This document shows positions 8,254 to 56,968 of a stretch of 64,000 bases of DNA, one piece after another. Where the stretch lies: positions 74,918-138,917 of the forward strand of contig MU006095.1 of the NCBI GenBank assembly GCA_010093705.1, read 5' to 3'. Position numbers and translations under genes: made by a program. Numbering within the stretch: the stretch's first letter is position 1; every line of letters begins with the position of its first letter. This stretch comes from Patellaria atrata CBS 101060. Taxonomy: Eukaryota > Ascomycota > Dothideomycetes > Patellariales > Patellariaceae. The notes beneath the pieces are model-generated. The model saw only the letters and a list, made by a program, of their open reading frames with translations, was not told the origin of the DNA and ran no database searches.

Positions 8254-10950
8254 TCAATTGCGAGAATCGCCGAAAATAGTCCCATTTGGAACTCGAAATT
8301 GAAGGTCAATGAGGTTGATACCAAATCCATTGTCAAGGCTGATGTTCTTTGCACTACTCCCTAGGTTTTCGGTATTGGAGAGCAGGAATGATTGAAGTCG
8401 TGTTTGAGCCGTAACCGCTAAATCGAGATCTCGTGAGGTTTGTAGCACGAAGAGAACACCAACACGGGCAAAGTCTACAATAGTCTTGTTCATCGAAGGC
8501 ACATCAGACAAGCTTGTACTGGTAGCCTCGGTCGAAATAGAGGCTGCTGTCCTTGATGATGCTGAGATAGCTGATGTTCGAGTTGCACCTGGAACGGTAA
8601 TATCCGATGATGCTGCGAAAATGATACCGTTGCTTGTGACCGCGTCAGGGATCCCATCTTGTCTCTCCGCAAGTACAATTGTTGGTGCTGGCGTGATCAT
8701 TGGGTTAAGTTCAATTGTCGCTGATGCTGAATGTGGACTCCGCAGATCAGGATCAGCCGCGAGAAGAGGTACTGCAAATGGCTCCACAGAGCGTCCAGAC
8801 AAGCCATTGAATGTGACCAACGCATTTTCGGACTGGCAGCTTAGGCTGTTAGAAGAAAATAAGGAAAGTAGGAGTGAAGCGTTCAGCGGAATACTGAAGT
8901 TCTGCTGCGCATCTTCCAGTAGTCTAGGAATAGACGAGCCAATGGTCGCCTCGGATAGACCAGCGACGTTGGCAGTCGTACAGCCTGAATCCGGAGCAGT
9001 GGTACAACGATCTCCTGTGAACCCATTTGCACACAAACAACTGCAAGTGTTTCCTCCAAGGACTGTGCTAACACCACCATTTTGGCAGGAGACGTCTCTT
9101 TCACAAGCCGCCAGAGCACCGGCATTTCCGTTTTCTCGTTGTTTGGGAAGCACGATCAAGACGATAGGAATGACGACAGCAGCAGCAACAAGGAGGAGTA
9201 ATATAATCATGAGGAGAATAAAGGCCCACAAAGGCATACCACAACATCTGCGCTTCGATCGACTGGTCCCCTCTTCTCCTTGCTCTGAAGCACTCTGGCC
9301 AATAGCCAGACCCGATGATGGCCATCGTGATATTGGACGAGTAGGAGTCATATTCCCTGTGGGAGTAGCGAGCCCGGGTGGTGGAAACGATGCTAGGATG
9401 TCGGAAAGTGACCCCGAACGTCTCTCTGGCGTACCCCCCTGTTTCTCGAAGTTTGGATCTATGAAAAGGTCCATACCAAGACGACTCGCCGTCTTACCAC
9501 GATCTAGGTTAGCCGCGAGACGGGTTGCGCGCCGAATGAGATCGGGTAAACTTGTTAGACTTCCTCTTGCTTCGGGATCTTTAACGGCGTCGACGTCGAG
9601 CCGTGGTGGCCTACGATTACCTACGCGTTCGGCCAAAGAGCTTTGGCGTTGAGGTGACATGAAGTCCTTTGCAGTTTCGGAATCGAGCGCACCGCCTTTC
9701 TCCAACCCTCCTATGATTAGCTCAACATCTCGGTCCACAGGGGCAGCAGGCGAACGGGACCGAGAAAATGGGGCCGAATACACATCGCCTTTTAAGAACC
9801 CTGTTTCTTTCTGCATCATGTCCAGCGTTTCTGATGAGGAGCTAGATGAATCGAGAAGTCCAGTACCTCCGCTTAATGATGTGGGTGAGCTCGTGTTCTC
9901 TCTTGAGGCACCTAATCCCGCTGCAACAGCTCCACCAGCTGCGCCGATGGATACAGCAGCTTGTCCAACGATACCACCTTTCTTACGCGATGCCTTGTCC
10001 TTCTCTTGGCGCGAGAATTCTCCACTTTTGGTAGTGACTAATGATGGCTTCTGTCTTCTACCAAGACTGGCTTGTCTGACCAACCCCGACTGATCATTGT
10101 GATCACTTGCTCTTGAAAATCTTCCATCATCAGAATCTCCTGTGACTGGCGGCTCATCATCATCATCGGAACGTGGGGATTCGGCAAAACGAAAGTCAGG
10201 ATCGGCAATTGGAATGGCCATGCTCGAAGCATAAGATTGATGTGAACGGGTACCTTCCGATTCTTCAACAATAGGAGAGACAAAGGATGCCTGAGAATAA
10301 TAAGACGACGGACCTCGACGAGCTGATGGTGGAGGTCCAATGTTTGCACTTCGTCGGGCTTGGGCAATGGTCGGAACTGGAAAATCAGGTATTGATCCTA
10401 GTGAGGACGCAGTTGATCCTCGAGAGGAGGTTGTAAGTGGTCTAGAATTACTCGGGGAGAGAAGTGAAGGTGAATAGGGATCATTGTCCTGGTATATGCT
10501 CTGCGGTGATAATAGATCATCGCGTGGAGATTGCTGTTGACGTCGAGGTGAATTTGTGCTCTGGTTAGACAAGTCCAAAAGAGAGGGTACATAGTTCGGT
10601 CTAGGTGGTCGTTGAGGAGGTGGTCCTCTGTTTTGATCACGCTGGCGTGGCCGACTATTCGAACTACCCATATCTTGATCATTCGAAAGAGGCCACTGTC
10701 CGTTTGAAGGAGGTTGGGATAAGACTACATTTGGTTGACTTGAGTTTTGTTGCTGCGTGGAATACTGGGAGATGAGCTGGTTGGGACGAGATGGTAAGCC
10801 TATTCGCTGTGGGACATGGGGAGCGCTGGGTCCATTTCTGGCCGCATTCATCCGTTCCCTGGCGGCTCGAACAGAGCCTTTTGGTGGTTGAATCTCACTA
10901 TCATCTTGTATCCTGCTAGGTGCCCCCACCGGCCGCTGGGGATAACTCAT
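8254..10950 (-). CDS. Single-pass membrane protein with extracellular EGF-like domain
   Basis: Single exon, 898 residues. Residues 1 to about 580 are a long, disordered, Ser/Pro/Arg/Gln-rich cytoplasmic region with many potential phosphorylation sites. A basic stop (KRRCCGMPLW) then precedes one strongly hydrophobic helix (FILLMIILLLLVAAAVVIPI). Immediately outside is an EGF-like module, CERDVSCQNGGVSTVLGG followed by CSCLCANGFTGDRC, with six or more spaced cysteines. The last 230 residues form an N-glycosylation-rich ectodomain (for example NFSIPLNASLL). The layout suggests a type II signal-anchor protein at the plasma membrane. Proteins of this architecture occur in many filamentous ascomycetes but have no established role that I know of; a wall-sensing role is only a guess. 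Neither neighbour hints at function. Confidence 0.8.
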   Translation of the reverse strand: MSYPQRPVGAPSRIQDDSEIQPPKGSVRAARERMNAARNGPSAPHVPQRIGLPSRPNQLISQYSTQQQNSSQPNVVLSQPPSNGQWPLSNDQDMGSSNSRPRQRDQNRGPPPQRPPRPNYVPSLLDLSNQSTNSPRRQQQSPRDDLLSPQSIYQDNDPYSPSLLSPSNSRPLTTSSRGSTASSLGSIPDFPVPTIAQARRSANIGPPPSARRGPSSYYSQASFVSPIVEESEGTRSHQSYASSMAIPIADPDFRFAESPRSDDDDEPPVTGDSDDGRFSRASDHNDQSGLVRQASLGRRQKPSLVTTKSGEFSRQEKDKASRKKGGIVGQAAVSIGAAGGAVAAGLGASRENTSSPTSLSGGTGLLDSSSSSSETLDMMQKETGFLKGDVYSAPFSRSRSPAAPVDRDVELIIGGLEKGGALDSETAKDFMSPQRQSSLAERVGNRRPPRLDVDAVKDPEARGSLTSLPDLIRRATRLAANLDRGKTASRLGMDLFIDPNFEKQGGTPERRSGSLSDILASFPPPGLATPTGNMTPTRPISRWPSSGLAIGQSASEQGEEGTSRSKRRCCGMPLWAFILLMIILLLLVAAAVVIPIVLIVLPKQRENGNAGALAACERDVSCQNGGVSTVLGGNTCSCLCANGFTGDRCTTAPDSGCTTANVAGLSEATIGSSIPRLLEDAQQNFSIPLNASLLLSLFSSNSLSCQSENALVTFNGLSGRSVEPFAVPLLAADPDLRSPHSASATIELNPMITPAPTIVLAERQDGIPDAVTSNGIIFAASSDITVPGATRTSAISASSRTAASISTEATSTSLSDVPSMNKTIVDFARVGVLFVLQTSRDLDLAVTAQTRLQSFLLSNTENLGSSAKNISLDNGFGINLIDLQFRVPNGTIFGDSRN

Positions 10951-13827
10951 CTTTCTTCCGCCTCTAAATGTTGGCTCTCACGGTTATCAGCCGCCCAAAA
11001 AAGATCGACTCCACGTTCCTAACTGCCGAACGACAGGTATGGAGTCACACCATCAAAATCGCGAACCAAACTCTCGGTCGAAGTTGGTGAATTACTGTTG
11101 GGTACTGAAAGATGTTCCCCGATACGGTGATAGACCAGTCGCCGCAAATGTTCTGCAAACACCAATATGGGGCCCCAAGTTTCAAAACAGCGAGTTGATT
11201 TTCATACAACTGTTGGTGGTCCGATCGTTCCAACGTTTCTGGTCTTCGATGTACGTTACAACCAGAGAGCTATCATGGAGTGTTAGAGGATGTTGTACGG
11301 TGATATTGAACATATCAATTACATGATAGGAAACCGAACGGCTCAGCGCTCACAACGAAATATTGGGAAGTCAGAAAGCAAGCTTGAGAACTTTAGTTCA
11401 ATATAGTAATACAAACAGCCTTATGGAACCCTAAGTTCAAGCATGTTGTAGCTTGTAACAAATGGTGTTGCAGGACTCAAAAGCGGAAGAAGCAATCACT
11501 ATGGTTTCATAAGAGCTGATATACATACCCATGACTGGATCCATATCACAGGTTTTGATAGTAAGTCAAACGGATAGTGTCGGAGATGACCTTGACACTT
11601 GAATATTTCTTCGAACGTATGTAAACTTGTGCGACTTGCGCATGCTCTTCGCAGTAATCCCAGAGAGCGTCCAAGGTTTTCGTTCTGCAATAAGGGTATC
11701 CGGACCTCGGGAATGGTTCGCTTTGGACGTACGAAGTTGTAATTATAGGTACAGAAGAAATGAACGACTGGTAGGAGAGACGGGAATCTACGTCGTCCTG
11801 AAGATAGTGGGAAAATCAGGAGCGTCAAGCTCAAGATTGCAAGGAATGGCAAGTAAGTGTACGTACTGTACGCTCGGTACCGTACCAGCAGTGTATATAT
11901 CACTGAGATAAGGGAAGACAAGAATAATGGAACTGGGAGAAAGAGGAGAAAGGACAGGCCGCAAAGGTCTGGAGTTGCTAGACGGGAAAGTTACTTTTCA
12001 TGGTGTGTGGTCGACTGGTCGGTGTAGCCTGGGGAGGCGTTCGCTCACGAATTTGACGACTCAAGGCGCTGAAGTCGATTGCATACTGCACAGACACGCC
12101 AGATGGAAGCGAACAAGCCCCCTTCTCATGGTTCTAAGGCCTTTCTGCTGGAGTCAGCTGGGATCTTTTATCATCTTTTCCTGCAGTGCGGTACGACTTT
12201 GCTGTAATCAGCTCGTTTAGCGGACTTCTGCGACGCATGGCGAATTGGCGGGGTGATGAAACAAACCAGAGGTCACTGTCAAGGCCAATCACATATCGTG
12301 ATGATGATGTCCCTTATTCATTTTCCTCGTCCACTTTTGCCAAACCTCCTTAAGCTCCTTAAACCTAGTTGTTTTGGATTGAGGGGCCGCTCTGCATAAA
12401 AGATATTCGCCTCCACCCTAAGCTCACTTTGGGTATCTTTAACTTCAATTTATGGTTAGTTATAAATTGGTCAATAATATAAAATAGTCAGGTAAGGTAG
12501 CTTTACCAGATCTTTGTTGTTATGGTAGACCATGAATTCCGCTACTTCACCTCGCCTCCAAAGCCAAAAGTTTGTATGACAGAACTTGGGTCGACAGTGA
12601 CATGTTGCCTCTCACGAGAACGGGATTCATCGCTGCACAAGTGTCCCGATGCCTCCGGTGTGCGTCGTGTGCCGTGAGACTCGAGAGCAGAAACGTCTCC
12701 TGTAATCTCGCATGTTGACTGGAGCACACGTGCCACGGTTCACCACAACGTTCTGTCTCTACCAACTTTTTAAGAGGACGGTGAGAATGTAATGCATGAC
12801 ATAGAAACTTTGTAAAGACTAGAAAGTAAATCCCCTACCTTATTAGTACCGTACCGGATGAAAATCGTCTCTTTTTTTTCACTTTCGATGTGGTTTCCAC
12901 CATTTCGTTCCTGAAACCTTGACATAGGTTGACGATGCTGCGGGTCTGTTACAAGGTACTACTACTATGCTGTACTGTACTGTGTTAACCCATGTGAATC
13001 GGAAAATATCTGTCGGGTGCGATTCTGCGACGCTGGGTTTAGGAAGTAAGCAGTGCGTAATTTCTTCGCCGGCTTTGCGGCTTTGCTACTTAGATTATCC
13101 TAGTGTTAATCATGACCCTCTCGTCACCGCTATGTCGTTTCATGCTGTACCTCTTAACAGAGACAAAATAGTTGATGATGGTATTGAAGGAAAGAAAAGA
13201 CTGTTAGGGTGCTTGTTTGATGACTTCAGTCTATCGCTGTAGTACTGTACAGGACATGTACAAGTACAGTGCAATCAAAACTTCCCGTGTCCTCGCCAAG
13301 ATTGTATGCAATACGAAAATCTTTATACGAATTTCATTAGGCAGTGTCACTCATCCATAGTAGTATCTTGATATACCGTGCGTACCGCGTTGACTTCTCC
13401 GCGTCTAGGGGATGCACCGATGTCGACTCTAGATTTACTGATATGCAAGTTTCGATATTGAGAGCTGAAAGCGATTCTGATGGATGGTAGAGCAAGTGAA
13501 GTGGAGGATAATTAGGTGTAATGTAAGATGAAGGGATAGCTAGAGAGGGATTGTCTAACAGGACGGGATAAGGTATAAATCCCTGGCGAAAGAGGGAGAC
13601 GCTCAAGACTCTATCTACAGTTCCCAATAAAGAAGAAGGATTCTCATTGACTACCTTAATACTAAATGCAGTGGAAGGGCAAACTACCTTATCACAGTCT
13701 TGACTCATCTAGTCAACTAGTTACTAAGCTTCATAATATGACTTCTTCTCGAGAGACTTCAGAGTCCACACCCTGTATCTTGTGTTCGACCTCATCGTAA
13801 AGACTATGGCATTCTAGCCCTTGGTCC
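10951..13827. other. 2.9-kb gene-poor stretch
   Basis: Lies upstream of the EGF-domain gene and downstream of the Arb2 gene. It contains only short, unconvincing frames; the longest is 123 codons on the minus strand at 13337-13708 and has no family I know. GTAC-rich palindromic runs occur around 11861-11887, 12958-12980 and 13242-13270. No RNA gene or element seen. Confidence 0.5.
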
Positions 13828-15466
13828 TTAGGTTTTCTTCACAAGTCCTGCTCTCTCAGCCAGATCCCTATCAACCATCACACCTGCGATTTCAATCTTC
13901 TCCTTCGTGTTGGTCTCCGTCAACATTGTGCCTGGAAAACCATCAACACATCCTGGAACGTCTTCGACAGCTGCATCATGTTCGTCCGACTTTTGCTTTG
14001 ATCCATCTCCTTGCACTTCATGGACGTTACCCTTCGTCAAACTATTATCTTCGATAACCTCTAAGGGTGCGCGCTCCTCCAGTTCTGTCGCTTCCTCCAA
14101 TCGAGGCTCCGGGATGGTATCGGGAGCATGAGCTTCTACACGGTTCTCCATATACCTCTTCTCGCGCTCCGCTGTAACTTCTGGCGCAACTGCGAATTGC
14201 GGGTTGTGCCATTCGTCTCCTCCGCGTTCAACTTGTTCAAAGAAATCCAGTATATCGCCTTGAATTGTATGAAAGATGTTCTCGATATAAGTAGGTTCAC
14301 CGCCGCTGAAGTAAGGACAGACCGCTCGTCCAGTGAGGTCAAGATCAGCTAAGTCCAAATCCACATCATCGAGATCAAAACGGGGCTTTTCGCCATCTTT
14401 TGCGTTATTCTTCTTTTCCGCGCGATAACCACGAACAACATTTACAACAGTGTTTGCGGGAAAGTCAGAAGTGACCCAAGCTCGAGCACGGCGGCCTAGA
14501 AAGTTTACTAGACCCGGATGGTTGAAGGCACCGACGTTTGTAAAAGGCTGAGTAAATGCCACAGCAGTTAGCTGTTGCCCAATCTCATCGTCTTCCCCAG
14601 TAGTCAGTGAAAGCACAACTTAACAAATCATTTCTACTCACAATACTTTGAAGCAACACCAAGGAAGTTATCTGCTCCGTCATTTAGGCCGACAACGTAG
14701 AGTTGCGCATCCTTATTCACATAATCAGGGTTATTGATGACCCTTTGGAATACGCTGCGAATATGCTCTGATGGGCTTGTATGTCCAGGGATGTTGTTGA
14801 GATTATCATGTTGCATATCGGATGGATGATATCGACTGGGCAATCGCTTGCAATGCCATGATAGATGTGTCATTGCTGCGTTGGCTTTGTAGGAGAAGAC
14901 GAGCATGCCCGGGTTTAGGATAACAAAGCCGGGTGGGCCTTCTTGATCCGCGAGACGAGAATTGACATTCTTTATAAATCGGACAAGTGTGCCTCCTTCA
15001 AGACCCCCTTCTCGCTGCAGATATCGGTGCGACGTAATTCCTAGGTCTTGGTAGCTATGGTTGATGATCACTATAACGCGTTTCTTTGACTTCAACTCAT
15101 CATTTGGCGTGATCATAATGGGGAGATGAGGCTTATTGCGAGGTTTGTCAGTAGTCTCTTGAGGAAGATACAGCTCTTGTAATCCGGCTTCTTTCAACCG
15201 CTTGTTGACTTCTGCGCGAACGCAAATATGAAAGGCTTCCCGATTCAATTCATTGGTCCGCTCGTCAGTACAAATGCGGAACACATAGCCTTCTTTCGGA
15301 TTCTTGATTTGTCGAATTTGGCTTTTAGCGTTCACAAAGTATCTCGAGTAAACCGTTAGTAGACGCCTCAGTCTTGTACCATCACATAGTAGACATACCC
15401 AAGGCCCTCGAAAGTATCAGGGAATACGAGGTTCCTTGGAAGCCCCGATAGATGTCGACGGTACAT
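13828..15466 (-). CDS. Arb2-domain protein
   Basis: Three exons: 15466-15399, 15342-14642 and 14591-13828; exon sum 1,533 nt, 510 residues. The N-terminus MYRRHLSGLPRN, then FPDTFEGLG|YFVNAKSQIRQI, is typical of fungal Arb2-domain proteins. Later come KKRVIVIINHSYQDLGI, a glycine-rich turn GGLEGGTLVRFI, PGFVILNPGMLVFSYKANAAMT and LYVVGLNDGADNFLG, together an alpha/beta-hydrolase-like fold. The last 150 residues are acidic and disordered. In Schizosaccharomyces pombe, Arb2 is part of an Argonaute siRNA chaperone complex, and the same domain is found at the C-terminus of Hda1-type deacetylases. Whether this stand-alone protein acts in RNA silencing or chromatin here is not shown by the sequence. 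I recognise the family firmly but the function only loosely. Confidence 0.82.
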
Positions 15467-16792: not shown

Positions 16793-19162
16793 ATGGGTTC
16801 CATCTTTCTTCCGGGAGACATTAGACAAATCATTCAGGATTTTCCCCCAAACTCTGCTCAACAGCAGAGTGATACCCTAATTCCGAGTACCACTGGCGAT
16901 TATTTACTAAAGTCGAATCAGATTAAGGATATTATTCGATCCGTCATTGACAATGGTACAATGATTGCTGATTGTTGGACTACGACTTCATTCTAAGCTT
17001 GCAACAGGCACCGACTTAATTCCCTTACAAACTCTTTTACTCCAAATCACCGTTGGTGAGAATGATCTTAAGGATGTATTATCTCAGATGACATCTGAGG
17101 TCATTTGGAACTTCAACAATGATCACATTTACCCACGGTATGATTTTCCTCGTCATGTAGTGTGTTTTCCCCAGACGTACAAGTCGTAAGATATGCTTTA
17201 CGCCACCGGGATTGTCTATCCTTTGGTCTATAGACTATATGTGAAGTGGTTCTATACTGCTAGCACACATAATGTGGTCTCAGACGATTACAGCATCAAT
17301 TGTGTTTAAGTTGAATATCATTAGTTTGCTAAAGTGCTCTACTGATCAAGGAAAATACGTCAGTACCCTGCGCCTGGAGCTACTGAAGTTTTTCCAAAAA
17401 GCGGTCTCTGAGGCTTTGGTGCCAATCCGGCGGTTTTGTATGCAAAAGAACATATCTCCAGCCTCTCTCCAGGAGCTAGTCCATGAAATCAATGATTCAT
17501 CTATGGGTAATGACATTCTTCACGTTACCGAAAGATATGGTGGCTCTCCAAATGAAACTTATGTTTATACAACTTTGTACTGGGAAACGATTAAATGTAG
17601 GATCGTGAATGAACTCCAGAACGCTCTTGAGAGTATCGAGTGAGTCGTTCCGATGCTCTTGGACATAACCTGCTGATGCTCCAATAGAGAAACTACCCTC
17701 ACTTGCAAATTACTTCCCGGTAATCCACCATTGGAGTTCATAAAGGCCATTATTACCAGCATAGAAAATTTCTCAGAGAGATACCGCGGACGATTGAATT
17801 TTCGAAGTAATCGTGTCGAGTTTACACCGATGGATACCTTGAAGAAGAATGCCATGCAATCCATTGAGAATATCATTGACCGCCAAAATATGCTTAGTTA
17901 CGCTACCTATGACCACTGGATAAGTAACTTTCCGGAGATATACGGAAATGAAGACGAGTTGCGCAAATCTATGATGCAAAATGGTGATCGTATCATGTTC
18001 CTTGAGAACGGTGTGCTTGAAACTGCGTGGTTCGAGAATGATGTGGAGGAGAAAATAGAAGCGTTGAGAAGAAATAAATACGTTGAATTTCCAGTAAATC
18101 TCCACTAGACTAGAGCTAAATTTATCTCTGCTGATTGTTCTAATATAGGATGTAAGAGATGAGCATGTCTACTGGAATATCAAAGGTTCCGACTGCGAGT
18201 GCTTAAATGAGCTTCAAGTTGGTAGATTAAAATCGATATACGATAATGAAAGTCAACTGGTCCGCGTAAGCTACGAACTCAGCAACAACAAATTTTATCT
18301 AGTCGATCGCCGGTGGCTAGAGGAAGTTATAGACTTCGCCGGCGAACTTGCTAAAACTATAGCGCAAGCTGACTGGGATCGAGGGCAGATAAACAAGGAA
18401 GAGGTCAAATTCATTCCAGAAACCATTTTATTCGAACAACTCCGGACGAAGTATAACATCCGCGCTGTCAACCTTGTACGTTGCCTGCTCAAATCCGATG
18501 TTGGCGCTGCAGCAGCAAGTGCGTACCGTGAGCACGTGAACAAATTGACAAAAGAATCCGAGCAAGAATTTGCTTCCTTTTGGAGGGACAGTGTCTCCTT
18601 ACGAGTCCAACTTTACACAACTGGAGTAACAGCTATACCTGATGATAAGATGCAAACACAGTTCCGAGATTTGCTCGAAAACCACATCTCTAAGGAGCTT
18701 GTTACCGAGACCTTGGCGCGGGCGGAATCGAAACACTTACTTCAGTCAAGTATTGTCCGTAAAGATGTTCAAAAGCTCAGAGCCAGTCTGGATGAACATA
18801 GACCAATTATACCTGCCCTCGATAAGTTCGCCTCAAAACGGGGTGTTCCTGCAATAGCAGTGGAAGAGCTTGGAGTGAGGAAGAAGGAGATAACTCGTGA
18901 AAGGGTCGCTAAAATGAGGAACGATAAGGATCCACCACGTCTATTTCTTACATTGGTGGTGATACTGTGGGAGATTCATAATGCGGGGCTCATATATACC
19001 ACCGGTAAGTTTTCACCAAAACTCTTGAAATCGCTTCAACCAGTGATAGCTCCCGAGATGCTGGAGAAACTAGAGGTCCTCAAAGCAGCTGTCAAGGCCG
19101 GATCGGTCACCGATACTCAGAAACAAGAGATGAGAACACTAGCCCAAGATGCTTGTCTTTAA
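16793..19162 (+). CDS. UFL1-like protein (UFM1-protein E3 ligase family)
   Basis: Five exons (16793-16955, 17008-17137, 17325-17639, 17688-18093, 18149-19162) sum to 2,028 nt, 675 residues, with every junction GT..AG and in phase. The joined protein is collinear with metazoan/plant UFL1 as I remember it: GDYLLKSNQIKDIIRSV matches the GKEYITPAQISKEM strand-helix; NGGTDLIPLQ matches GGRVNIVDLQ; YVSTLRLELLKFFQ precedes an IRRFC/ELC block; then ETYVYTTLYWETIKCRI, VKFIPETILFEQL, EFASFWRDSVSL and the C-terminal KDPPRLFLTLVVILW. UFL1, with DDRGK1 and CDK5RAP3, attaches the ubiquitin-like UFM1 to ribosomal protein uL24 (RPL26) at the ER. The lysine-rich disordered insert of animal UFL1 is absent, which explains the shorter length. 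The 5' end is the weak point: the first helix of UFL1 is not found, and an exon upstream (ATG at 16728) may supply it. The 187-nt second intron is also less certain than the rest. Identity is judged by eye, not by search. Confidence 0.7.
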
Positions 19163-19371: not shown

Positions 19372-20043
19372 TCACATCAACTCCGCGGGCGACATGACTC
19401 CACCACCCTCCACCGTCCCCTCTCCCAACTGTCTACATAGGTTCCTGTCTTCTTCTCCCATCCCCCCCGCCTCCAGGATCTCCATAATAACGTCAGTCTT
19501 CGCGATCACGTACTCATCAATCGTGATCCCCCTCTTAGCTAGCTCAAACTTAACCTGCGCATATTTCTCCCTCAATTCCTCCCTCTCCCTCAACACATCC
19601 CTCACGATTCTGTTATTCCGCTCACCGATACTGCCTTCCAGGATGACGTATATATTTCTCCGCGGGTACCTTAGAGGCCGGTTCCATCGGAACGCCATGC
19701 GATCGGGTACGCCAAGGGATCCTTTACGCTCGTAGCCGGCGGTCATGAAGGCGTCGACGGCCGCGTCGAAATTCTCAGACGTGACGATCACGTTAATGTC
19801 GATGATGGGTTTGGCTGCGAGGTTGGGAACGGCGGTGCTGCCGATGTGGAGGATCTCGATGTAGGGGACGTGGGTGAGGATGAGTTCGATTTCGCTCTTG
19901 ATGTGGAGGAAGAAGGTGGGCCAGAAGTTTAGATAGGGGACCACTTCGACGAGGGACATGGTGGAGTTTGGAGAGGATCGGGTAGATGGGCTTGGAACAG
20001 TATCGATGTCAGGACTTTTCGAACTCCTAAGTCGTATGTGCAA
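19372..20043 (-). CDS. GrpB-family (UPF0157) nucleotidyltransferase-fold protein
   Basis: Single exon, 223 residues. The core reads EIELILTHVPYIEILHIGSTAVPNLAAKPIIDI, shown here as EILHIGSTAVPNLAAKPIID, the hallmark of the GrpB/UPF0157 family, which has a nucleotidyltransferase-like fold. Further family features are the strand-turn RMAFRWNRPLRYPRRNIYV and the helical block REREELREKYAQVKFELAKR. The cellular role of fungal members is unknown. The first 28 residues are Ser/Pro-rich and the start could instead be MSLVEVVPYL. It converges with the UFL1-like gene; the two stops are about 210 bp apart. Confidence 0.85.
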   Translation of the reverse strand: MHIRLRSSKSPDIDTVPSPSTRSSPNSTMSLVEVVPYLNFWPTFFLHIKSEIELILTHVPYIEILHIGSTAVPNLAAKPIIDINVIVTSENFDAAVDAFMTAGYERKGSLGVPDRMAFRWNRPLRYPRRNIYVILEGSIGERNNRIVRDVLREREELREKYAQVKFELAKRGITIDEYVIAKTDVIMEILEAGGMGEEDRNLCRQLGEGTVEGGGVMSPAELM

Positions 20044-20946
20044 TGCTCTTAGTCGTAGGTTATGGAAATAGGTTGCTTAGGTTGTGGAGATATCTCGATC
20101 AGTTGGAAAGTGTAACAGGTTGTATTAGTGGCAGGGGCTTATTTTGTATCAGTATGCGCTGCTTCTGCTTACCTACTGCAGCCTGTTGTTTGCCATTATG
20201 GCAAAATTGATGAGGTCCCCGTTGTTTGTTCGGAAGGCGACGCTCGTGATACACATAGTTGGACATTGTGACCTCTCAATTTCGAGGGAGGTATATCCCC
20301 ATAAAGGGGAAAGAGCAATGAGACGTTGGTCCTGAAATATGACTTGACTCTACAGTATATCACATAATGGAAGGGGTTATTTGCTCCACTCCTATCAAAA
20401 CTATATATATCCTTTACGGGACTGTTATTGGAGTTGTTTACGTCATCCGCGTCATATAGATCGTCAGCCTACCCGCTGCGCACAAGAAAGAAACCTCACC
20501 AGAAAAAAAATGCAAAAGAAGAGCCCCAAAGGCTCCCAGAAACCAGGGGAACTGATTTGCTGTGACGAATATCCACGGTGGTCTTTCCCGATTCCGTTTC
20601 CTTAAACTTATATGAGAGTCCTTAGGCAGCCCACAACCGGGGGATGAACCCTCATACCAGTTGCAACGCAGGAGGTTGATCTAAGCAAGTACCGCGTACT
20701 ACGTACTAAACGGGCATGTTATTCGGAAGAAGGCCGGGTGATTTGGAAATTATAAGGTGCAAGTGCAGACGCGGAATTGGAAAGGTGCGGTTGCGTTAGA
20801 ATCAAGTTTGTTTTATTTTGAGCATATTCGTGGGCACACTTTTAAGTGAAGAATGGGAGAAAAACGTGACTTTGGCCAAGAGTGAGAGTTGTGGAAGGGA
20901 GGACGGGAGAATCACTCTGATTGGACTTGGCACTCTATACTCGAAC
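20044..20946. other. Intergenic, upstream of GrpB-family gene
   Basis: About 0.9 kb, with no convincing gene. A GTAC-rich run lies near 20690-20710. The stretch leads directly into the minisatellite. Confidence 0.45.
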
Positions 20947-21679: not shown

Positions 21680-22486
21680 TCAAAGCCTTGCTTTAGCGTC
21701 CTGCTCTAAGGCAATCTCAATTGTGCACAAGATCAATGTGTCTCTCAATGCTGGAACTCTGAATCGATGATTAACTTCCTGGTAGTCATCGCTAGCGGCC
21801 ATGTCTGCGAAATGCCATATACTCGGATAGTGCGCGAGCGCAACTTCGTCCCATAGAGTTTCATCATCCAAACTTTGATCCTGATTGGAGGTCCTCTTCC
21901 TCCCATTAACTTCTACGACAGTGCCCACAATTTTGGCATTCCCTCCGCGCTTGACACCAATAGACTCCGCAAACGCCTTACCATATTGTATATATGACTC
22001 CTTCATGTTGGGCTTGAACGACAAGAGATTGAGCATAGACACCGGACTAGCACCTTCTTGCTGACTGAAGTTTTCCATCCACTCCCGTAATTCCTCTGTA
22101 AGCTCTAGGTTTTGCGCAGAATTTGCGATTCGGGGTTTCTGAAGAGCACCGGTCAACGGAGGTACGCGATCTTTGCTCATGTGTAACAGTTCTTGATTCC
22201 TTTCCCGGAATCCGCCAATGAGTCTGCTCGGTATACCTGCGCTTACGCTCCATTGCTTCCGGACGAGTTTTCGGAGAGACTTTGGTAGAGGTGACTGTGA
22301 AGCGAGTATGAGAAGGAGGTCCCATTGTTCATTGAGAAGCACGGAAGTGGAAAGTGTGGTGGGACGTATGATCCAACGGATCACTTTTGAGATGACAAGA
22401 GGAGTGACCTGCGTCGTGCGAAGAGCTGTTTGAAATGCAGAAATGGGAACATTGAGAGAAAGGAGATGTATGTTGCAGACTGGCAT
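21680..22486 (-). CDS. DUF1330-like dimeric alpha/beta-barrel protein
   Basis: Single exon, 268 residues. The C-terminal 150 residues carry the recognisable part: EGASPVSMLNLLSFKPN, then YIQYGKAFAESIGVKRGGNAKIVG, and a closing block WDEVALAHYPSIWHFADMAASDDYQEV. This pattern of strand, helix, strand and a final aspartate/tyrosine-rich helix is the DUF1330 member of the ferredoxin-like dimeric barrels. The N-terminal 110 residues have no family I know. No catalytic residues can be assigned and the function is unknown. It is divergent from COQ4, about 520 bp away. Confidence 0.7.
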   Translation of the reverse strand: MPVCNIHLLSLNVPISAFQTALRTTQVTPLVISKVIRWIIRPTTLSTSVLLNEQWDLLLILASQSPLPKSLRKLVRKQWSVSAGIPSRLIGGFRERNQELLHMSKDRVPPLTGALQKPRIANSAQNLELTEELREWMENFSQQEGASPVSMLNLLSFKPNMKESYIQYGKAFAESIGVKRGGNAKIVGTVVEVNGRKRTSNQDQSLDDETLWDEVALAHYPSIWHFADMAASDDYQEVNHRFRVPALRDTLILCTIEIALEQDAKARL

Positions 22487-23004
22487 ATTGATTCTGGGAT
22501 GATGAGGAACGTCTGTTTTGTGTGGTACAGTACTTATAATGAGAGATATAATAGACGGTACGAGGAAATGGACATATATCTAAAGCATACTGTTGAAGTA
22601 CGATTTACTTAGGGATCATTGAGGGGAGAAAAGTATGAGGTGAGGTTGTAACGTAGCCTCGGATGCACGTATCACTAGCAGGAGCCATATCTAAGATCTT
22701 GGCATAAAATGGGCTTCAAGGTATTCTTCAAAAGTCAGTGATTTTTTTGGTCATTTACTTAACGAGTAGGAATAGAACAAATTCATATAATTACCTAAGA
22801 TCTCCGCAAAAAATGTTATAGATCTGTGTGCGATATGATATTTTTAGATTAGGTGGTGAAAGTGAAGTTGACAACGTCAGTTCTAAGCGCGTTAATTCCG
22901 CGATAATCCTCAAAGCTCGGGCACGGACCATCACATAAACTCCCGTCGCAACCTTTATGCACATCAAGTAAGGACTGGACGGTGTTGTATGTTACGGTGG
23001 AAAA
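22487..23004. promoter_or_regulatory. Divergent promoter, DUF1330-like / COQ4
   Basis: 518 bp between two outward-facing starts. It is AT-rich around 22735-22860. No specific site recognised. Confidence 0.4.
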
Positions 23005-27553: not shown

Positions 27554-29290
27554 TTATATTATGAGCTTTTCAATAATATTCTGGGGACCTGTAGCGACCA
27601 TCGACTGCTGATACTTTTCCCGGTAAAAGGTTTGGATCTTCCGTTCGATGTTGATTTGCTCGCTTTTCCATCTCCCCGATCCAATGGTTTGCGTATCATC
27701 ACCTTTAGAACTAAACCAGCTGCTTAACCCATTCGACTTTGGCCTCGTGTCAACCAAGTGCTTCTCTTCCTCGGCAAAGATGTCTACCATCTTACCCCAA
27801 TTTTTCAACCCGACTTCTACGCACTCAATACACTTCTTTTTAGAAGCATCAGGCAGACTTTGCTCCCTGAGACTAGTTTCTGCTGCTTCTACAGCTTTGC
27901 GTGTCCAACCTAATCCTACTTCTCGCTGTCTACTTGAAGACGAAGACATAGAGAAAAGTATCTCGCCAATGAAGGTCATCAGAGTTGCTTCCTCACAGGG
28001 ATCGGACGGATTTCGCGTGATGGGAGTATCATAAGATGGGGGTGGAGGAGGGTAAGAAGGCTGTTTTAGAAATGCACCCACGGAACTATAGGGTGACGGT
28101 TCTTTATTTTCTGACTCATCATTTACGAGCACGACAGGTGCCGAGCGTCTTGCGCGTAAAACTGATAAATATATCGGGAGGGAGGTGGAAGTATCCCCTT
28201 TCTGCGCATAATGTGTTGCTGTTTGGGTGACAACGCGTAGCACATTTTCTGACACAGTCTTTGCCTCTGTATTTATTACGAGCGAGTCTTTCTTGAATAG
28301 AGATGACGGATCTGGTAAAGCGGAGACGGCAATGTCGAGGCTCCATTTATACATCTCTTCAGCGGTATCATGAAGACCTTTGAAATCTAACCAATCTGCG
28401 TATGCTAATGCAGCATCAACTCGCTGTCTAGTGGTGAACCCCTTGCTAGTCAATACTCGCATGTAGAATGCTTCAGGGGGTTCAAAAGCTGGTTCACAAT
28501 TTTCTTCTAACGGAGGCTCAATCCTTTTGCTGAACGGTGGTAGAGGTTTTGGATGCGGATTTGAAGGTCCTACAACATGAGCAGGATCCAGAACCCAGTG
28601 TCTTGTTGTATCCACGACCATTCCATCCAAATGTTCTGCACATTTTGCACAACCCATTATTACTTTGAAATACCCGTCCTTCCATTCGTAGTCCTTAGCT
28701 TCGATATTGTATCCTGCTCTTCCTAAACCGGGAATCAATACCGAACCCTCTTCCTGTTCAACCAAACCCTTTCCTTCGTGCTCTAGATCTTCCAATCGTC
28801 TAAGAATCGTTATCCAGTTCCCTGATAATTTAGCCCAATCGATCATCTTTGAGCCATCTGGGGCTGGTGCTTCCTCGTGATGTCCTTGGCGCCAGAGAGC
28901 CCTAGTCTTCATCCGCCATTCTGATGGGCTGGGATATTTGCGCTCCAAGATTTCATTCTTGACTCCATAGCTTAAGAGTGAGAATAGGAAGATGCATGAG
29001 AAGCTGAAGAAGGTATATTTCCCAGTTAGCCAAGCTTGCTCTTTGAAGTACCTCTTTCGTTCTGTAGTTAATAGACGCGTAAGCCGTAGCTGCCCGCCTT
29101 GAGTTGGGAATGATTGAGTTCCTGGAGAAAGAAAGGGAAGCTGGGGTCGTAACGTCGTGGGTGTTAAGAGGAGCAATCTTGTGCGTTGGGTAAAAGGTCT
29201 CAAAGAGGATAATGGCGATGCTTTGTTAGGAGGCTGAAACTTGCGTAGCAGTGGTTGTATCCGATGACGATCTAAGCGCGTAAGGGACAT
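27554..29290 (-). CDS. Mitochondrial inner-membrane TPR-like protein, Mgr3-like
   Basis: Single exon, 578 residues. The N-terminus is arginine/leucine/threonine-rich and poor in acidic residues for about 85 residues, as in a mitochondrial presequence. One hydrophobic helix follows (YTFFSFSCIFLFSLLSYGV, about residues 92-110). The rest is a soluble helical domain with tetratricopeptide-like helices (for example RQRVDAALAYADWLDFKGL with HDTAEEMYKWSLDIAV) and a CxxC pair, GCAKCAEH. The layout resembles yeast Mgr3, an adaptor of the i-AAA protease Yme1, and fungal orthologues often labelled simply as TPR proteins. Assignment to Mgr3 is tentative; mitochondrial location is better supported. It is divergent from NOP6. 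Confidence 0.6.
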   Translation of the reverse strand: MSLTRLDRHRIQPLLRKFQPPNKASPLSSLRPFTQRTRLLLLTPTTLRPQLPFLSPGTQSFPTQGGQLRLTRLLTTERKRYFKEQAWLTGKYTFFSFSCIFLFSLLSYGVKNEILERKYPSPSEWRMKTRALWRQGHHEEAPAPDGSKMIDWAKLSGNWITILRRLEDLEHEGKGLVEQEEGSVLIPGLGRAGYNIEAKDYEWKDGYFKVIMGCAKCAEHLDGMVVDTTRHWVLDPAHVVGPSNPHPKPLPPFSKRIEPPLEENCEPAFEPPEAFYMRVLTSKGFTTRQRVDAALAYADWLDFKGLHDTAEEMYKWSLDIAVSALPDPSSLFKKDSLVINTEAKTVSENVLRVVTQTATHYAQKGDTSTSLPIYLSVLRARRSAPVVLVNDESENKEPSPYSSVGAFLKQPSYPPPPPSYDTPITRNPSDPCEEATLMTFIGEILFSMSSSSSRQREVGLGWTRKAVEAAETSLREQSLPDASKKKCIECVEVGLKNWGKMVDIFAEEEKHLVDTRPKSNGLSSWFSSKGDDTQTIGSGRWKSEQINIERKIQTFYREKYQQSMVATGPQNIIEKLII

Positions 29291-29506
29291 CCTTTACTTG
29301 AACAATTGATTGATAGCAAATACATTTGGTTGTTTGCGGTTGGAGTTAGATAGAATCTTAGCTCCAACCTGACGGGAAGCAGGACGGAATGTTCCGCCAT
29401 TCGAATTTTGACTTTGTATAAAGTACCTCCAACTTCAAAAAGCGCGCCACGACTTTACCTCAACACCTCTCAGCCAGGAACACGCGGCCTTCTAGGTATC
29501 AACAAC
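29291..29506. promoter_or_regulatory. Divergent promoter, Mgr3-like / NOP6
   Basis: 216 bp separate the two starts. The NOP6 frame is open upstream to 29408, but the ATG at 29507 (MGSSGKHKKGG) fits the family's lysine-rich start better. Confidence 0.45.
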
Positions 29507-43924: not shown

Positions 43925-46896
43925 CTAGGATACTTGCGAGAGATTTCGTCTCTTTGCGTCGTGCTCTGTCGCGCCAGCATCCTCCTCATTCCGTTCGCGC
44001 TTCATACGCGGTGTGTGATCTTTCATCACATACATCTGACCATACATCTCCACGGCATTGAAGAAAACATTCACCCCATTTAGCACAGCTTCACTGACCA
44101 AAGGAGATAGTGACTGTTGTATGATGGAACCTATCGTCATTTTCTCATACCTGGCAAGAGATAACAGTTGCTGTTTTGGGTCGTCAGCAATGATCAATGA
44201 AGAGCCTTGATACCATTGCAGTGAGAGGAAATCCGCAGTATTGATGTTTCCTTCCTCCATGTCTCTAGTGATTGAGCCGTAATCGTTGTACAGTCTTGAC
44301 AGTATAGACATGTGATGGGCCAGATCTTCAGAGACGTATTGGGACAGTGTTGTTGCGAATGGTTCGTGTCCGTACTGAGCGTGCATCAAACATGTAAAGA
44401 AGGCAAATGCGATGTTTCCACCTGTATGCGGACCAGATGTACTACCTAACCAGCGCAGAATAGATCCATGTGTATCGTAAAGCCATTCATGGCTCTTTGT
44501 GACTTTACAATTGCCATTGTGTTGTGGTTGTGCTCGTCTTATATTGTCTTCTAACTGAGCGAGATGCCCGAGAAGATAATCAAGGAGATGAATTGTAACT
44601 TGGCGTTTCTCATGGCGACTCGCCCGTCTAACATTTGGATGGTCCCAAAGAAAGAGTATGAAGCGCTTTATCGGATCGTCAATCTTGGACTCAGCCAGAT
44701 GTTCGGAGATGTGATCCATATTCCTGAATATCGAAAGAACACTCTGGCGTATTGTGAACCGATCATCTCGCGACAATTGCATGACAACAGACTCCATGTA
44801 ATGATCCATTGCATAAAGTAAAGCTGAGAAAGTCATCATATCGAGTAGACAACTGGCACTCAATCCGGAGTTTGAGATATGGTTAGACACGGTCCAAGTA
44901 AATGGGATGAATTTCAAGTGCTTTCCTCCAACCTTACTTTCCGGTAAAATTTGTTGACATATTTCGGCAAGTTGTGTTGTAAACAAATCCCCTTCCGTTA
45001 ACGATGCGGTAAGAAGCCAACATGGAGTTTCGAAAAGCAGAGGCAAATGGCTGTACTTGCCCACTAGTTGTTTCTGAATGAGGTTACAATCATTCGATAA
45101 GCATGTTTGTGTTAATTCGCAACCTGGTGCTTTCAACGCCGCAATCGCGTATACTTGTGCAAGAATGTTTGACTTGTAGGTAACTTTCTCAATCCAAACG
45201 TAGGTGGCTTGAAACTCGTTCTCAGTCTTTGCGGTGATGAAAACTTGAGCTCCTTTAATCGCGCCATTAATCTCTCTGGATAATGTTTGGGCTGACTCTA
45301 GATATGTTAGAGACTGGAGTGCCAGAGTCGCATAAGCGGTAGGTTCCGGTGAGTCCTCCCAAGAACCGTCTTCACGTCTTGCCCTCAATAACCGAATCAA
45401 GATTTGGAAAAGAATGATGGACATTTGACCTTTTAGATTTCTGTCTAAAAGAAGCGGTCGGTTCTTGGTTCGTGATGCGTTTATGGCCTTTGTAAAAGCT
45501 TGACACAAAAGCATGATTGGATAATAAGATGATAAATTCTGGAATTGTTAGCCTCCTTCTAAAAGATGTATTTCATGGCCTCACCCATTGATCGGTAAAC
45601 TTATCGTGGTTCTTCCACACTATTCCACATAGAAACCGGATCACCTTCTCGATGTGTTGACGGTAGTGGTTTGCATCGCCAGATAGTAAAGCAAGTAAAA
45701 CGTTACAGTTTGTGCTAATTTTAGCATTTCTTTCGTGGTGAAATGTCTCGAAGGAGACTTCGCCACCGAACTCTTGAATAAGCTTGTCTGGAGTGACTCT
45801 TATGCCAAGCGCAGAGAGTGCGCAAATGCATTTTGCTGTATCATCACCATCGGGCTCAAGGTAAGATGCTATAGACATTAGCAAAGACCGGCATTTTGAT
45901 AGGTGTACTCATATTCGTACCAAATCCAATCAAGCCAGAACCTCGCTCAAGCTCGCTTTTCAGCATTGAACCTATTGTGGATGTGATGTCCATCCCTAAC
46001 TCTTCTCTCGTAAAACCAACGTCTAGGAGCGTAGTTACAACCTGGAGTATTATAAGATTAGTTTTAGTGAAATTCTGTTGGCTAGTGCATTTACTAACCC
46101 ATGATAACTCGAAAAAGTGAGACGGGAATGCGCTGGGTACACCCCCAATGCCACGGTCCTTCGCTCCCTTTACGACACGATGAAGATACATCTCAGATTC
46201 CTCGTCCCAGGTACTAGACTCCATAAGGTACGCTGCAGTCGATGAAGGAGAAGCCATCATACTTCCGAAAACCTTATGATGACGTATTCTATCGAAGTTG
46301 ATTTTCCCGATAAACGCCTCAAGGGAGTGCAACGCCGTTGTTCTTTCAGAGGAATACAAAATCTCTGGTGATAGTTTGGCAAGCTTTGCACTCCGGATCT
46401 TCATTAAAGGGTCCTTGCCTCTGAACTCGAAAGCAATACCTTCAACCTCCAAGAAATCCAACATTGCGGGTACTAATACTTCGAATCCAACATGAGTTGA
46501 CGCTGGGACATCCCAGACTTCCAATTTCTCCTGTAATGAAAGCTTTGCTTTCGTGAGACGGGACTGAAGATCTTGCACATCTAAATCTAGTTGGTGAGGA
46601 TTCTTGATATGTTTGCATAGAGACAAGAGAGCTGCGGAAGTATTCAAGATCCCATCGGTTTGCGAAGCGTATGTCGGCCATGCTCCTGAAGTTTCTTGTG
46701 TATCTAGCAAATAGTTGAAGCTTTCCGGAAAGAGCCATTGTGGGGACCCATCTATAGTCTTTATGATCAAAGAGATCCAAGCTGTGTCGTAAACAGACGC
46801 TGACATGGAACTACCTCCGAGAACCTCGTCATAGCTGTTTAACATCCCTTCCAGAAGGTTAGTCGCTCGCGTGGTAAGGCTATCCTTAGTCTCCAT
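43925..46896 (-). CDS. Bifunctional diterpene cyclase (copalyl-diphosphate/kaurene-synthase type)
   Basis: Four exons, 46896-46099, 46041-45921, 45868-45585 and 45538-43925, total 2,817 nt, 938 residues, the normal size of fungal CPS/KS. Class II half: SSMSASVYDTAWISLI at the start, WPTYASQTDGILNT, and the protonating motif at residues 313-316, read as YLEPDGDDTAK (DxDD). The intron before it was placed so that GLIGF joins ASYLEPD as in relatives. Then RREDGSWEDSPEPTAYATLA. Class I half: residues 646-650 DHYME stand where fungal enzymes have the metal-binding DExxD/E, and NDYGSITRDMEE (819 on) is the NSE/DTE motif. So GGPP should be cyclised to a copalyl diphosphate and then ionised to a tetracyclic or similar labdane-related diterpene. 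The exact product (ent-kaurene, pimarane, aphidicolane) cannot be read. The start METKDS was chosen by family; an upstream ATG at 47079 is in frame. Confidence 0.9.
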
Positions 46897-48697
46897 CTTA
46901 TCACTGGGCGCGAGTAAAGTTACTTTATCCACTCCCCCCGTACGATACATTGACGGACATAATGAGGAGAAACGTCTATCGGAATAAGGAAGCAATTGGA
47001 GATTGTAAGGGACAGAGATGCTTGAATGTGGCCCTTGTCCGAATATCGATTTTGATTGAGATCCGTTGTCTAACTGCATAGCGGACTATGTCGTTATGTA
47101 CCCTAGGTACCTCACTTAAGCATGGGAAGAAGAATAGGTTTGCGTGCGGCGTCTTGTCCTTAAAGTCAAGTGGACTTCTGCGCCTAACCAGAGCTACCAA
47201 GAGCGATAGCCAGACATGGAAGCCTGGAAGGCCTTTTAGGCCTGGCTCCATTATTAGTACTTTTAGTGTTGATGGTTTGGAGTAGAGGTGCTTGGATGTT
47301 GAAAAAGCTAGTGAGGGGATGATGAAAATTGATATCAAGTAAAAATAACCGTTGTAAGCCGAACGTAACAGGTTTGACAATCCTGATCCATCCGTGTAAC
47401 CGTAACGTAAGCTGAAAAGAGGCCCCATAAGCCCCAACACCAGCTGAACAGGAAGGGGGTAAAGGGGGGGGGTGTTACTTCTCGGATTTCGGTGAATATC
47501 GTAGCTGTGTTATCCATTGCATTACGGTAGTCTTCTAAGCCTCCCAAAGGTAAGGATACGGTAGGCTGAAGAACCGAGCAGTCCCGTTACCACCACCGTA
47601 TGCAACTGGAATCCTTCAAAACAATTCACCGAGAAACTTACTTTTAACCCCCGCAGTCTTATAACGAATGTTAGCACCAACACCGCCGCTCATCTTTCAA
47701 TTGTCCTTCCGGCTAAGATTCTAAGGATGAATATTGTTGTACAGCGGCGTAAAGGCTGAATTCGAGGTCTTAGCCCTACCAGTCTAGTTCTAGTGTCTGT
47801 GTTGGCAACCTCAAAAAATGTTCCACGCCTCCAAGTTCACCTTGGTCTCTAACATCCAGGCCCACCTAAACGACATTACATCAGGAAAAGGTCTTCTGAT
47901 TGTCCTATTAAAGAGCTAGGAACATGTTTGCGTATAATTCCTTTTGGCCCAAATCACAGATTTCGCAAGGAAATTTTTCATTGATAATTGATCAAGTGCA
48001 GTCCGTTACAGTAGCAGGTACATAAGAGGAAAATGGGCCAATTGCATTCCCATAGCCAAGTTCTCGATCCGAATGCCAATTTTGATATTTCTAGAATTAT
48101 GAGCATTTAAATCATGCAGGTCACTCGGCACATGGATGTGATCTCCACCCCAGCACACATCAGTTATGTCTCTCATCAATTCATGATATCCATGATACCT
48201 TTCACACTGTAATTCCTTGATCCAGCCTTCCGACCATCACTCAGCCCTGAAGCCTTGAGGGAGGAGTTGGTAAAAGTTGGGTTCGTGACAGCATATCCGA
48301 GCATTCACTGGTTCGGCTTACCATTTTAGCGTCCAAGGAGTCCAACCGCAGCCCCTAAACTCACAATTTATATTATCCTTCCAGGCACCTACTACCTATC
48401 AATATTCCAACATCGTGATAAGTCGGACTAAAATATCGTTCACCGTTTTTAATATGTGTGTTCCCGGCGATTTTCCTTGCATGATGATCCGTTGACAGGC
48501 CGATCCTAGCCTAACCAATTATGTATAGAATGACGATATATGCTGTGAGTCTCATCGTACCACGAGGATTTGAAATGAACTGCTTAAAACACAGACTGAC
48601 TATACGAATAGCTGTGAGTCTTTGAACTGAAAGAGCTCGAGGTTCCCACCCTTTAGCGTACAATTCCTCTGACCAAGATTCGGTACAGCACTTCAAG
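46897..48697. promoter_or_regulatory. Bidirectional intergenic region, diterpene cyclase / P450
   Basis: 1.8 kb between two outward-facing starts, so it should hold the promoters of both genes. A G-run lies at 47456-47471. Several short frames (for example 48511-48750 minus) carry no family signal. No regulatory site identified. Confidence 0.45.
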
Positions 48698-54401: not shown

Positions 54402-56968
54402 TCAGATCCTCATACCCGCCTCGCCCCTGTCCTCCCCAAACTCCTCCTCAGCCTTCCTCCTCGTGTCCAGATACCTCTGCGCCCAGTCCTCACTGACGCC
54501 CTCGTCCCCCCTCACCCTCGCCACAATACTCTTCTTCATCAAACACTCACATTGCCCCTCCACATCCTCCAGATGCGTATAACACTCCAGCGCATTATCA
54601 AGGAAGAATTCCGCGCGGGAGAGGTGCGTAAGGACCGGCGGGGAAAAATCAGGAGTCGTGGCTCTAGACGGAGTGGAGGGAGAAGATGAAGGGATGGATA
54701 TGTATTTGCCGGCGAGGCCGATATGCGCGGTAGCCATATGCCCATGCAAATGCGCGACGAGGGCGAGATCTCCGCACTCGATGGCGTGCGGAATCGTACT
54801 GGCTAATATGCCCCTGGCGGCCTCGCACTCGCCCATCTCGTTCAGTATCCCCACTACCAGACCCAGCGCCTCCCATAGCGCGGGGAGGATCCTGCTTCGC
54901 CAGCTCAGCGCTGCGGCTCGCATGGCGAGGCTGAAGCCTAGCTCTGGTCTGTCGACTTTGGCCCAGAGCTGGGCTTTGAGGATCAGCAGGTGGATGCGCT
55001 GGTAGATGTCTGTATCTGCGTTTTCGAGGTCTGCGTTCACGTCTTCTATTTTCCGTAGCGCAAGGGGGAAGTCCTGTTGACGGAGGCGGTGTTCTATTTC
55101 TAGGAGTGAGAACTGGAATAAAAGATCAGGGTCTGAGGCGCAGCCGGCGCGGAGGGAGAGTAGGAGATGCGATATGGCGGTGATGTCGGAGCGGCGGAGT
55201 GCACGGCGAAGCTTGAGGAGGCCGGAAAAGGAGATGAGGTATTGGTGAAATTTGAGTGTGCGGTGAACATCCGGGTCTATGGATTGGAAGATGGACATGG
55301 CTTGAGTGAACCGGCCAGCTTGGGCGGCTGTGAAGGCATTTCTGCAAATGGCTCGGAGGGCTTCTTCGACAGGGGAGTGATCTCTGTAGCAGTCGAGAAT
55401 GAGATCACAATAGGAGGTTGAGAGATGTTGGAGTCCTATGTCTGCATTAGTGGATTAGGGTCAAGGTATTGGCTTCACCTAACTAACCAATTCGACCATA
55501 GAGTGCAGAAAGCATCAATAGTTGGGTACCAAAATTGTTCGTTATTCGGTGCGTGATGTTAAGATGGGAAGACTGGAACAGTTGTTCAAGAGCTTTCGGA
55601 GCTGTGTCCCCCTGAAACCAGTTAGAGTTATCAAGTGTATGAGGGAAATTGCGTACATTTGATAGCCTCAATTTTGCCTCACTTAAGAGGGTCGAGCTGA
55701 GTAGAGCGTAATTTTTGCTCTCCCGTGCTTTCGCTTTCAGGAACGCAATTCCCTCCCGTTCCGAACCTATCATGCCGCCATACTCAGTGCCCTTCATCCT
55801 CTTCGGGTAAGCCTTATTCAGGTGATTTAGCCAGCTTAGACTGAAGTTCAGACAGTTCAAGTCTTGATTCTCTCGAGCGGTGGCTATAGTCTCACTCATT
55901 GTAGCGATTGCTTCATCGAAGCATCCAAAATCTGCATGAAGAATAGCCATATGGAGTAGTGCGTAATGATAGTACGACTTGTCACGGTTATGCATTGTGT
56001 AATCAAAGTAACGATGCAAGTTATCGAACGCTGAGGTATAGTCTCCAGCTCGCCATGCATCGAAGAAACTATGCTGGTCAGGCAATTGTCTTATAATGGT
56101 TGGCTCCAACTTACCGGACGAAATGTAGTAGACTCGGTGTAGCAACAGAAGGTGTTAGCATCTTACGGAACTGAGACTTCATCTCGTCTGGTATTCTGTT
56201 CCCAAGTCCTAGAGACATTTTAGAATTCCTTCAACGAGAGTAAAGGAGAAGAATCGTACTCTGTAACCGCTGTACCTGAAAATCCAATATAGCTTCGATA
56301 TCGTCTGCAGCAACCAGTCCAGTCTGATCATCATCAATATCAAGATTCGCCATTGCAATGGAGAATAGATCATGACTATTATCCAGATCTTGGATGCTGG
56401 CATCATTTACTGAAGTACGAGTGCCAGGATGTCTCCTTTTCCAGGCTGTCGTTGTTGGCTCCCTATATTTGAAGAATGCGGCCCACAACTTGATTGCGTC
56501 ATCGAATTGAAGGCGGGTGAATTCTAACTGCGCTCTTCGAACATAAGCACCGCAAGGTGATGTCCGTGACAGTAGTATCCGATCTCTGTTCGATAACTCG
56601 CTATTATCAACATCGTGAGGTACATTCCTACCTTTCGCAAGGTATTGTTCGAGATCGTCGAAAAAACTGTGTAAAGAATCAAGAGAGTTGATGGACCATA
56701 ACTTATTTAAAAATAAATCGAAGAGAGTTCGACCAGGAACACTGGAAGAATGAGCCATCGTGAGATTTTCGAAATCTCGTATCGGAATGAAGAATCCATA
56801 TCCTATTACGCGTTCCTTGCTCTTTCCGCTCGAAAACTGCGCGACTTCAAGATGGGAGAGAATAAAAGAGAGTACTGGAATGACAGAAACACTAGGTACT
56901 ACTCCATCACAATATAGACTGATCAAGCAAAGCAGTCCTATCTTTTGAGGTGTCAGATATCGCGTCAT
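54402..56968 (-). CDS. APC5: Anaphase-promoting complex subunit 5
   Basis: Scaffold subunit of the APC/C ubiquitin ligase that drives mitotic exit. Four exons, 56968-56260, 56208-56115, 56068-55488 and 55435-54402, sum to 2,418 nt, 805 residues. The joints restore family sequence: DFQVQRLQ|RLGNRIPDEMKSQF, then LLHFV|RFFDAWRAGDYTSAFDN, then HRYFDYTMHNRDKSYYHYAL, LHMAILHADFGCFDEAIATM and ENQDLNCLNFSLSWL. These are the TPR blocks characteristic of Apc5. The N-terminal MTRYLTPQKIGLLCLISLYC is also typical. The last exon is noticeably GC-richer than the first three. Complete. Confidence 0.92.

Follow-up and report, generated by a model that had tools for sequence, protein, structure and literature searches.

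A divergent UFL1 homologue with an apparently missing UFC1-docking helix in Patellaria atrata

Introduction

UFL1 is the protein by which ribosomes are tagged with the small modifier UFM1. In the human UREL complex, as described in PMC10937380, the C-terminal domain of UFL1 fills the tRNA sites and is contacted by 28S rRNA helices, the PTC loop (residues 388-476) extends to the peptidyl transferase centre (PTC), and the N-terminal helix touches UFC1, changes of I8, F15 and Q19 abolishing complex formation. The partial winged helix (pWH) of UFL1 is, according to PMC9627666, completed by UFBP1/DDRGK1. Loss of UFM1 in fungi was reported by Picchianti et al. 2023 (PMC10183829), and a UFM1-independent role of UFL1/DDRGK1, one that predates UFM1 and continues in lineages without it, was suggested there.

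Here we describe a UFL1-related gene at positions 16793-19162 (plus strand) of a 64,000-nucleotide stretch of the Dothideomycete Patellaria atrata CBS 101060, hereafter called the window (contig MU006095.1, C7 in this analysis, positions 74918-138917; genome of 28.3 Mb in 46 contigs). The gene is a divergent UFL1 homologue and probably the UFL1 orthologue. We consider it fairly likely that its product stands outside UFM1 conjugation and serves as a UFM1-free scaffold binding the 60S subunit.

Results

Relationship to UFL1

In Foldseek comparison, the fold of the deposited Patellaria protein (P0001) matched three ribosome-bound UFL1 chains (631-692 residues) at E 1.8e-14 to 4.2e-14, and the winged-helix repeats and C-terminal helical region of UFL1 were found in the folds of both P0001 and the Pyrenophora relative P0003; these two, the former with 595 aa, stood in for the spliced 662-aa product in all fold comparisons. 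As judged from these models, the likeness to UFL1 is far beyond chance, and in the fold alignments human UFL1 and the fungal proteins are 11-14% identical. By sequence, the window protein matched no Pfam family at E<=10 in either its 675-aa or its 662-aa version, and the 675-aa product matched no PDB sequence. Among the relatives, however, the Pfam domain UFL1_C was detected at E<=0.01 in 37 of 41 members and E3_UFM1_ligase in 14 of 41, with P0002, P0003, P0062 and P0068 among those below the UFL1-domain cut-off. With the A3 family profile, UFL1 chains ranked top among the PDB sequences, at a not significant E of 0.16-0.22. A preliminary description of this DNA, made from its letters, had proposed a UFL1 homologue collinear over its whole length with UFL1. 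The homology was borne out by the folds of P0003 and P0001 and by the Pfam matches of the relatives, and collinearity holds for the overall fold but not for the human N-terminal helix and PTC loop, which appear to have no counterpart. Of the profile and fold comparisons proposed there, the former gave no Pfam family for the product itself and the latter gave the UFL1 chains.

At least 66 proteins, the query included, were collected in the relative search, for which scoring was limited to the 7996 candidates with the most words in common; six relatives were matched by the window protein at E 2.6e-36 to 4.6e-31 in the protein search. Three members (P0011, P0012 and P0029) were already labelled 'E3 UFM1-protein ligase' by a source. 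The named relatives are presumably Dothideomycetes, apart from Candelina submexicana, a lichen fungus (Candelariomycetes) that also carries a relative; a wider taxonomic spread may exist, since the search favours close relatives. The protein search with alignment A1 returned the deposited protein only, and the scan of prokaryote genomes with A3 for Asgard relatives gave 76 pattern matches, none of which was confirmed. The Patellaria protein differs from the other fungal UFL1-like proteins in being merely 22-28% identical to the 39 other members of alignment A4. Within the Patellaria genome the gene is present in one copy, as seen with the query of one relative: the single match of P0003 at E<=10 was this gene (18497-19147, E 9.6e-35).

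Apparent absence of the N-terminal helix and PTC loop

The N-terminal alignment consisted of 41 rows (40 relatives and the window product), nine of which were fragments or unaligned at the N terminus. A common first residue is shared by 29 of the 32 rows reaching the N terminus, which include UFL1-like proteins of Pyrenophora, Bipolaris, Alternaria and other fungi (P0002-P0068); P0063 starts one residue earlier, the window product three and P0031 20, the starts of the relatives coming from automatic gene models. In the structural alignment, the first residue of the P0003 model falls on UFL1 residues 27-30 in the three ribosome-bound chains and with residue 27 in the UFC1-bound chain 8c0d_A. 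The alignment and the models together suggest that the UFC1-docking helix, with human residues 8, 15 and 19, is absent in the family. The residual short helix is predicted to be the pWH helix rather than the docking helix, an assignment that could be mistaken.

In the region of the PTC loop, the fungal proteins carry a short segment common to Patellaria and its relatives, 24-36 residues long with flanks, and GGN occurs anywhere in none of the 41 rows, whereas the human loop has 88 residues and GGN. At the level of sequence, the PTC loop is without counterpart in the family. In both respects the fungal proteins appear to differ from human UFL1 in UREL (8ohd, 8qfc, 9gy4 and 8oj8).

UFM1 pathway components in the genome

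Six-frame searches of the Patellaria genome gave no match at E<=10 for UFM1, UFC1 or CDK5RAP3, the last being a fast-evolving protein that could escape the search, while ATG12 and a split URM1 were recovered by the same method as in-genome controls. A total of 17 ThiF matches were identified, 14 of which fall into eight E1-type loci, assigned to UBA1, UBA2, UBA3, AOS1, ULA1 (the assigned open reading frame, ORF, adjoins the ThiF match), UBA4, ATG7 and TCD; the names TCD, ULA1 and AOS1 are those that we take to belong to the matched structures. UBA5 was not found among the 17 ThiF matches. As candidates for UBA5, the remaining three matches, L017, L018 and L019 (ThiF E 0.06-0.3), were dismissed on visual inspection of their ORFs as other dinucleotide-binding proteins, and the TCD locus (L004) was rejected because UBA5 structures matched it more weakly (best 1.1e-10) than tRNA threonylcarbamoyladenosine dehydratase 1 (1.3e-84). 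The absence of UFM1, UFC1 and UBA5 is likely, not proven.

A match to PF09756 on contig C19 (E 9.3e-5) was examined as DDRGK1 and rejected, since the same ORF has the RPN6_N, PCI and RPN6_C_helix domains of Rpn6. The search with PF09743 and PF25041 missed the UFL1 gene in its own genome and found nothing in the control genomes either, and the failure to detect DDRGK1 is therefore weak evidence.

Peptidase family C78 also holds UfSP. The single C78 peptidase found in the genome was not accepted as UfSP, its best solved relatives being ZUFSP and Mug105, with zinc-finger matches in an overlapping preceding ORF. The gene (L020, 645-2289) is ZUFSP-like, with zinc-finger matches and the C78 peptidase domain that it has in common with ZUFSP/ZUP1; its closest solved relatives, ZUFSP (named a Lys63 deubiquitinase) and Mug105, give no evidence of UFMylation. 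The genome search for pathway members that had been proposed for this DNA thus turned up none of UFM1, UBA5, UFC1, CDK5RAP3 and DDRGK1, and the C78 protein is ZUFSP-like, not UfSP.

Conserved regions

With region borders drawn by us from the predicted structure, the mean column information was highest at the end of the C-terminal region (2.90 bits), followed by the pWH (2.65), the first part of the C-terminal region (2.47) and WH1-5 (1.82-2.31). Among the 108 columns that are at least 85% identical, 76 lie after residue 380, including 13 K and 5 R. The net charge of the C-terminal part ranges from -1 to +8 (41 rows) and that of the winged-helix part from -29 to -10 (33 rows with a long enough N-terminal part). 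Of 14 positions that do not vary among the 40 remaining members of A3, the Patellaria protein keeps 12. It holds the commonest residue at 16 of 35 conserved columns before the C-terminal region (counted without Patellaria), for which some N-terminal columns are lacking in the deposited protein. Fold and conservation would agree with binding of the C-terminal domain in the tRNA groove of the 60S subunit.

Gene model

The gene ends and five exons given in the preliminary description were reproduced: all five exons are open and all introns are of the GT-AG type (Table 1). A protein search identified the deposited protein P0001 (M501DRAFT_1016106, 595 aa) as identical across 85% of the 675-aa product. 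It starts at an ATG at 17272, within intron 2 of the best model (17272-17363), and the deposited model therefore lacks the two 5' exons, encoding the first 98 residues. These 98 residues alone scored 30.9 bits against the family profile, while the top of 999 shuffles scored 3.6.

For intron 2, a set of 33 rows (30 distinct), made up of the alternative open donors and acceptors together with the deposited protein, was scored, with the other exons fixed, against a profile of 40 relatives excluding Patellaria. The acceptor at 17363 (662 aa) gave the top score of 359.7 bits, and roughly its first 100 aligned residues were free of gaps; acceptor 17324 (675 aa) gave 343.1 bits, acceptor 17246 (701 aa) 337.5 bits and the deposited protein 313.8 bits. 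Since the second-best model, with a different donor and acceptor 17334, reached 351.5 bits, the splice at 17363 is favoured, not proven. The length of 675 aa proposed earlier is obtained with acceptor 17324, but the profile scores favour 662 aa.

Table 1. Exons and introns of the UFL1-like gene, and window ORFs without Pfam match
Feature	Position	Strand	Basis or remark
Exon 1, start codon, pWH	16793..16955	+	frame opens only at 16787; 29 relatives start <=3 residues from the matching place
Intron 1, 52 bp, GT-AG	16956..17007	+	
Exon 2, remainder of N-terminal 98 residues	17008..17137	+	family profile score
Intron 2, 226 bp, GT-AG	17138..17363	+	acceptor moved from 17324 by profile scores
Exon 3, winged-helix part	17364..17639	+	
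Intron 3, 48 bp, GT-AG	17640..17687	+	junction identical to deposited protein P0001
Exon 4, winged-helix part	17688..18093	+	agrees with P0001
Intron 4, 55 bp, GT-AG	18094..18148	+	junction identical to P0001
Exon 5 and stop codon; winged-helix end, C-terminal helical region	18149..19162	+	Pyrenophora P0003 match at 18497-19147
ORFs without Pfam match, first four	8257-10977, 21683-22579, 27557-29293, 43928-45547	-	Pfam E<=0.001
ORFs without Pfam match, last four	45859-47085, 54405-55454, 56234-56998, 60723-61874	-	Pfam E<=0.001

Neighbouring genes

Directly downstream, in the opposite direction, lies an ORF of the GrpB family (19375-20076, minus strand, E 4.7e-37). In the upstream neighbour (13831-15416, minus strand) an Arb2 domain is divided between one ORF matching at E 8.2e-41 and another at 6.9e-4, with an intron as the probable cause. 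Between 36718 and 54087, ORFs with multicopper oxidase, SET, GMC oxidoreductase, cytochrome P450 and fungal rhodopsin domains are located, possibly as part of a metabolic cluster. Eight of the 20 scanned window ORFs (255-907 aa) gave no Pfam match at E<=0.001, and some of these may be exons or chance ORFs.

Discussion

Because the E2 dock is seemingly lost and the E2 was not found, while the half-domain facing DDRGK1 and the end facing the ribosome are kept, a UFM1-free 60S scaffold is the best explanation for this protein. The losses come from the comparison with human UFL1; the mechanism is our inference. On free 60S subunits the C-terminal region would still occupy the tRNA groove, as it does in human UREL, the retained pWH would dock a DDRGK1-like partner, and the protein would form a 60S-binding scaffold free of UFM1, perhaps at the endoplasmic reticulum. 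Such a function may resemble the UFM1-independent UFL1/DDRGK1 role suggested by Picchianti et al. (PMC10183829), and the protein has probably kept this older, tag-free job.

Acting as a part of UREL and acting as a UFM1 E3 are separate claims, of which the former is plausible and the latter conflicts with the lack of the helix and with the failure to find the partners. The label E3 ligase, given in the preliminary description, is probably wrong, as the family seems to lack the helix that docks the E2, and UFM1, UFC1 and UBA5 were not found. Of the two options considered there, a lineage that kept the pathway and a UFL1 relative working without UFM1, the latter is the better supported.

Several observations weigh against the scaffold proposal. 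Binding to 60S is itself deduced from sequence and predicted models. In the C-terminal region, Patellaria holds the commonest residue at only 44 of 77 conserved columns (counted without Patellaria), and at the 19 columns with at least 90% K/R in the other 40 members it keeps K/R at 13 and not at six. The ribosome-bound UFL1 chains may be unresolved before residue 27, and the short fungal helix (P0003 residues 4-11) was assigned to one of the two human N-terminal helices by structural alignment alone. DDRGK1 was not found, the sole PF09756 match being Rpn6 and the DDRGKF pattern giving no hits, in a genome where the Pfam search also misses the UFL1 gene, and the searches for UFM1, UFC1 and CDK5RAP3 were made without a positive control genome known to hold them. 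The Pfam miss of the UFL1 gene and the lack of such a control would suit a complete, fast-evolving UFM1 pathway that was missed, with the protein as a working UFM1 E3. We regard this as improbable, because ATG12, URM1 and eight E1-type loci were recovered where UFM1, UFC1 and CDK5RAP3 gave nothing, the helix for docking UFC1 seems to be absent, and loss of UFM1 in fungi has been reported (PMC10183829).

The six columns that are not basic, together with the loss of the PTC loop, the acidic and weakly conserved winged-helix part, and a drift large enough for the window protein to escape every Pfam family, might also indicate that the UFL1 fold was kept for a new, non-ribosomal job, such as a winged-helix scaffold of another complex. 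This seems rather unlikely; the end of the C-terminal region is the best conserved part, and in human UREL the part of UFL1 lying on the 60S subunit is the C-terminal domain. Decay into a non-functional gene in Patellaria is the least probable reading: the deposited model lacks its 5' part, intron 2 is long compared with the others (48-55 bp) and identity to the other A4 members is low, but the five exons are all open with GT-AG junctions and nearly all of the invariant A3 positions are retained.

The preliminary description had called a UFL1-like gene in this lineage unexpected, which holds only in part, since the 2023 survey and the broad distribution of the family make it less surprising. 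UFM1-less eukaryotes of Picchianti et al. (PMC10183829) have kept UFL1 without UFM1, as Patellaria probably has. The main text of that paper does not contain 'Ascomycota', and its section 6 does not mention a missing helix or loop. In a literature search, no report was found on UFL1 in Dothideomycetes or on a missing helix or PTC loop, and the combination of absent parts described here adds usefully to the published picture.

With the scaffold proposal extended to the class, it is quite possible, though somewhat less likely than not, that Dothideomycetes keep a ligase-dead UFL1 from which the elements used in the UFM1 cascade and in probing the peptidyl transferase centre have gone, leaving a 60S-binding scaffold that works without the tag, in a return to the role played before UFM1. 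The present analysis corrects the deposited gene model and addresses the persistence of UFL1 and DDRGK1 beyond UFM1 in many lineages. A protein family in filamentous fungi that lacks the docking helix for the E2 as well as the PTC loop, from a genome in which no UFM1 was found, would set ribosome binding by UFL1 apart from its work as a ligase, and a UFM1-independent function of UFL1 would become directly testable.
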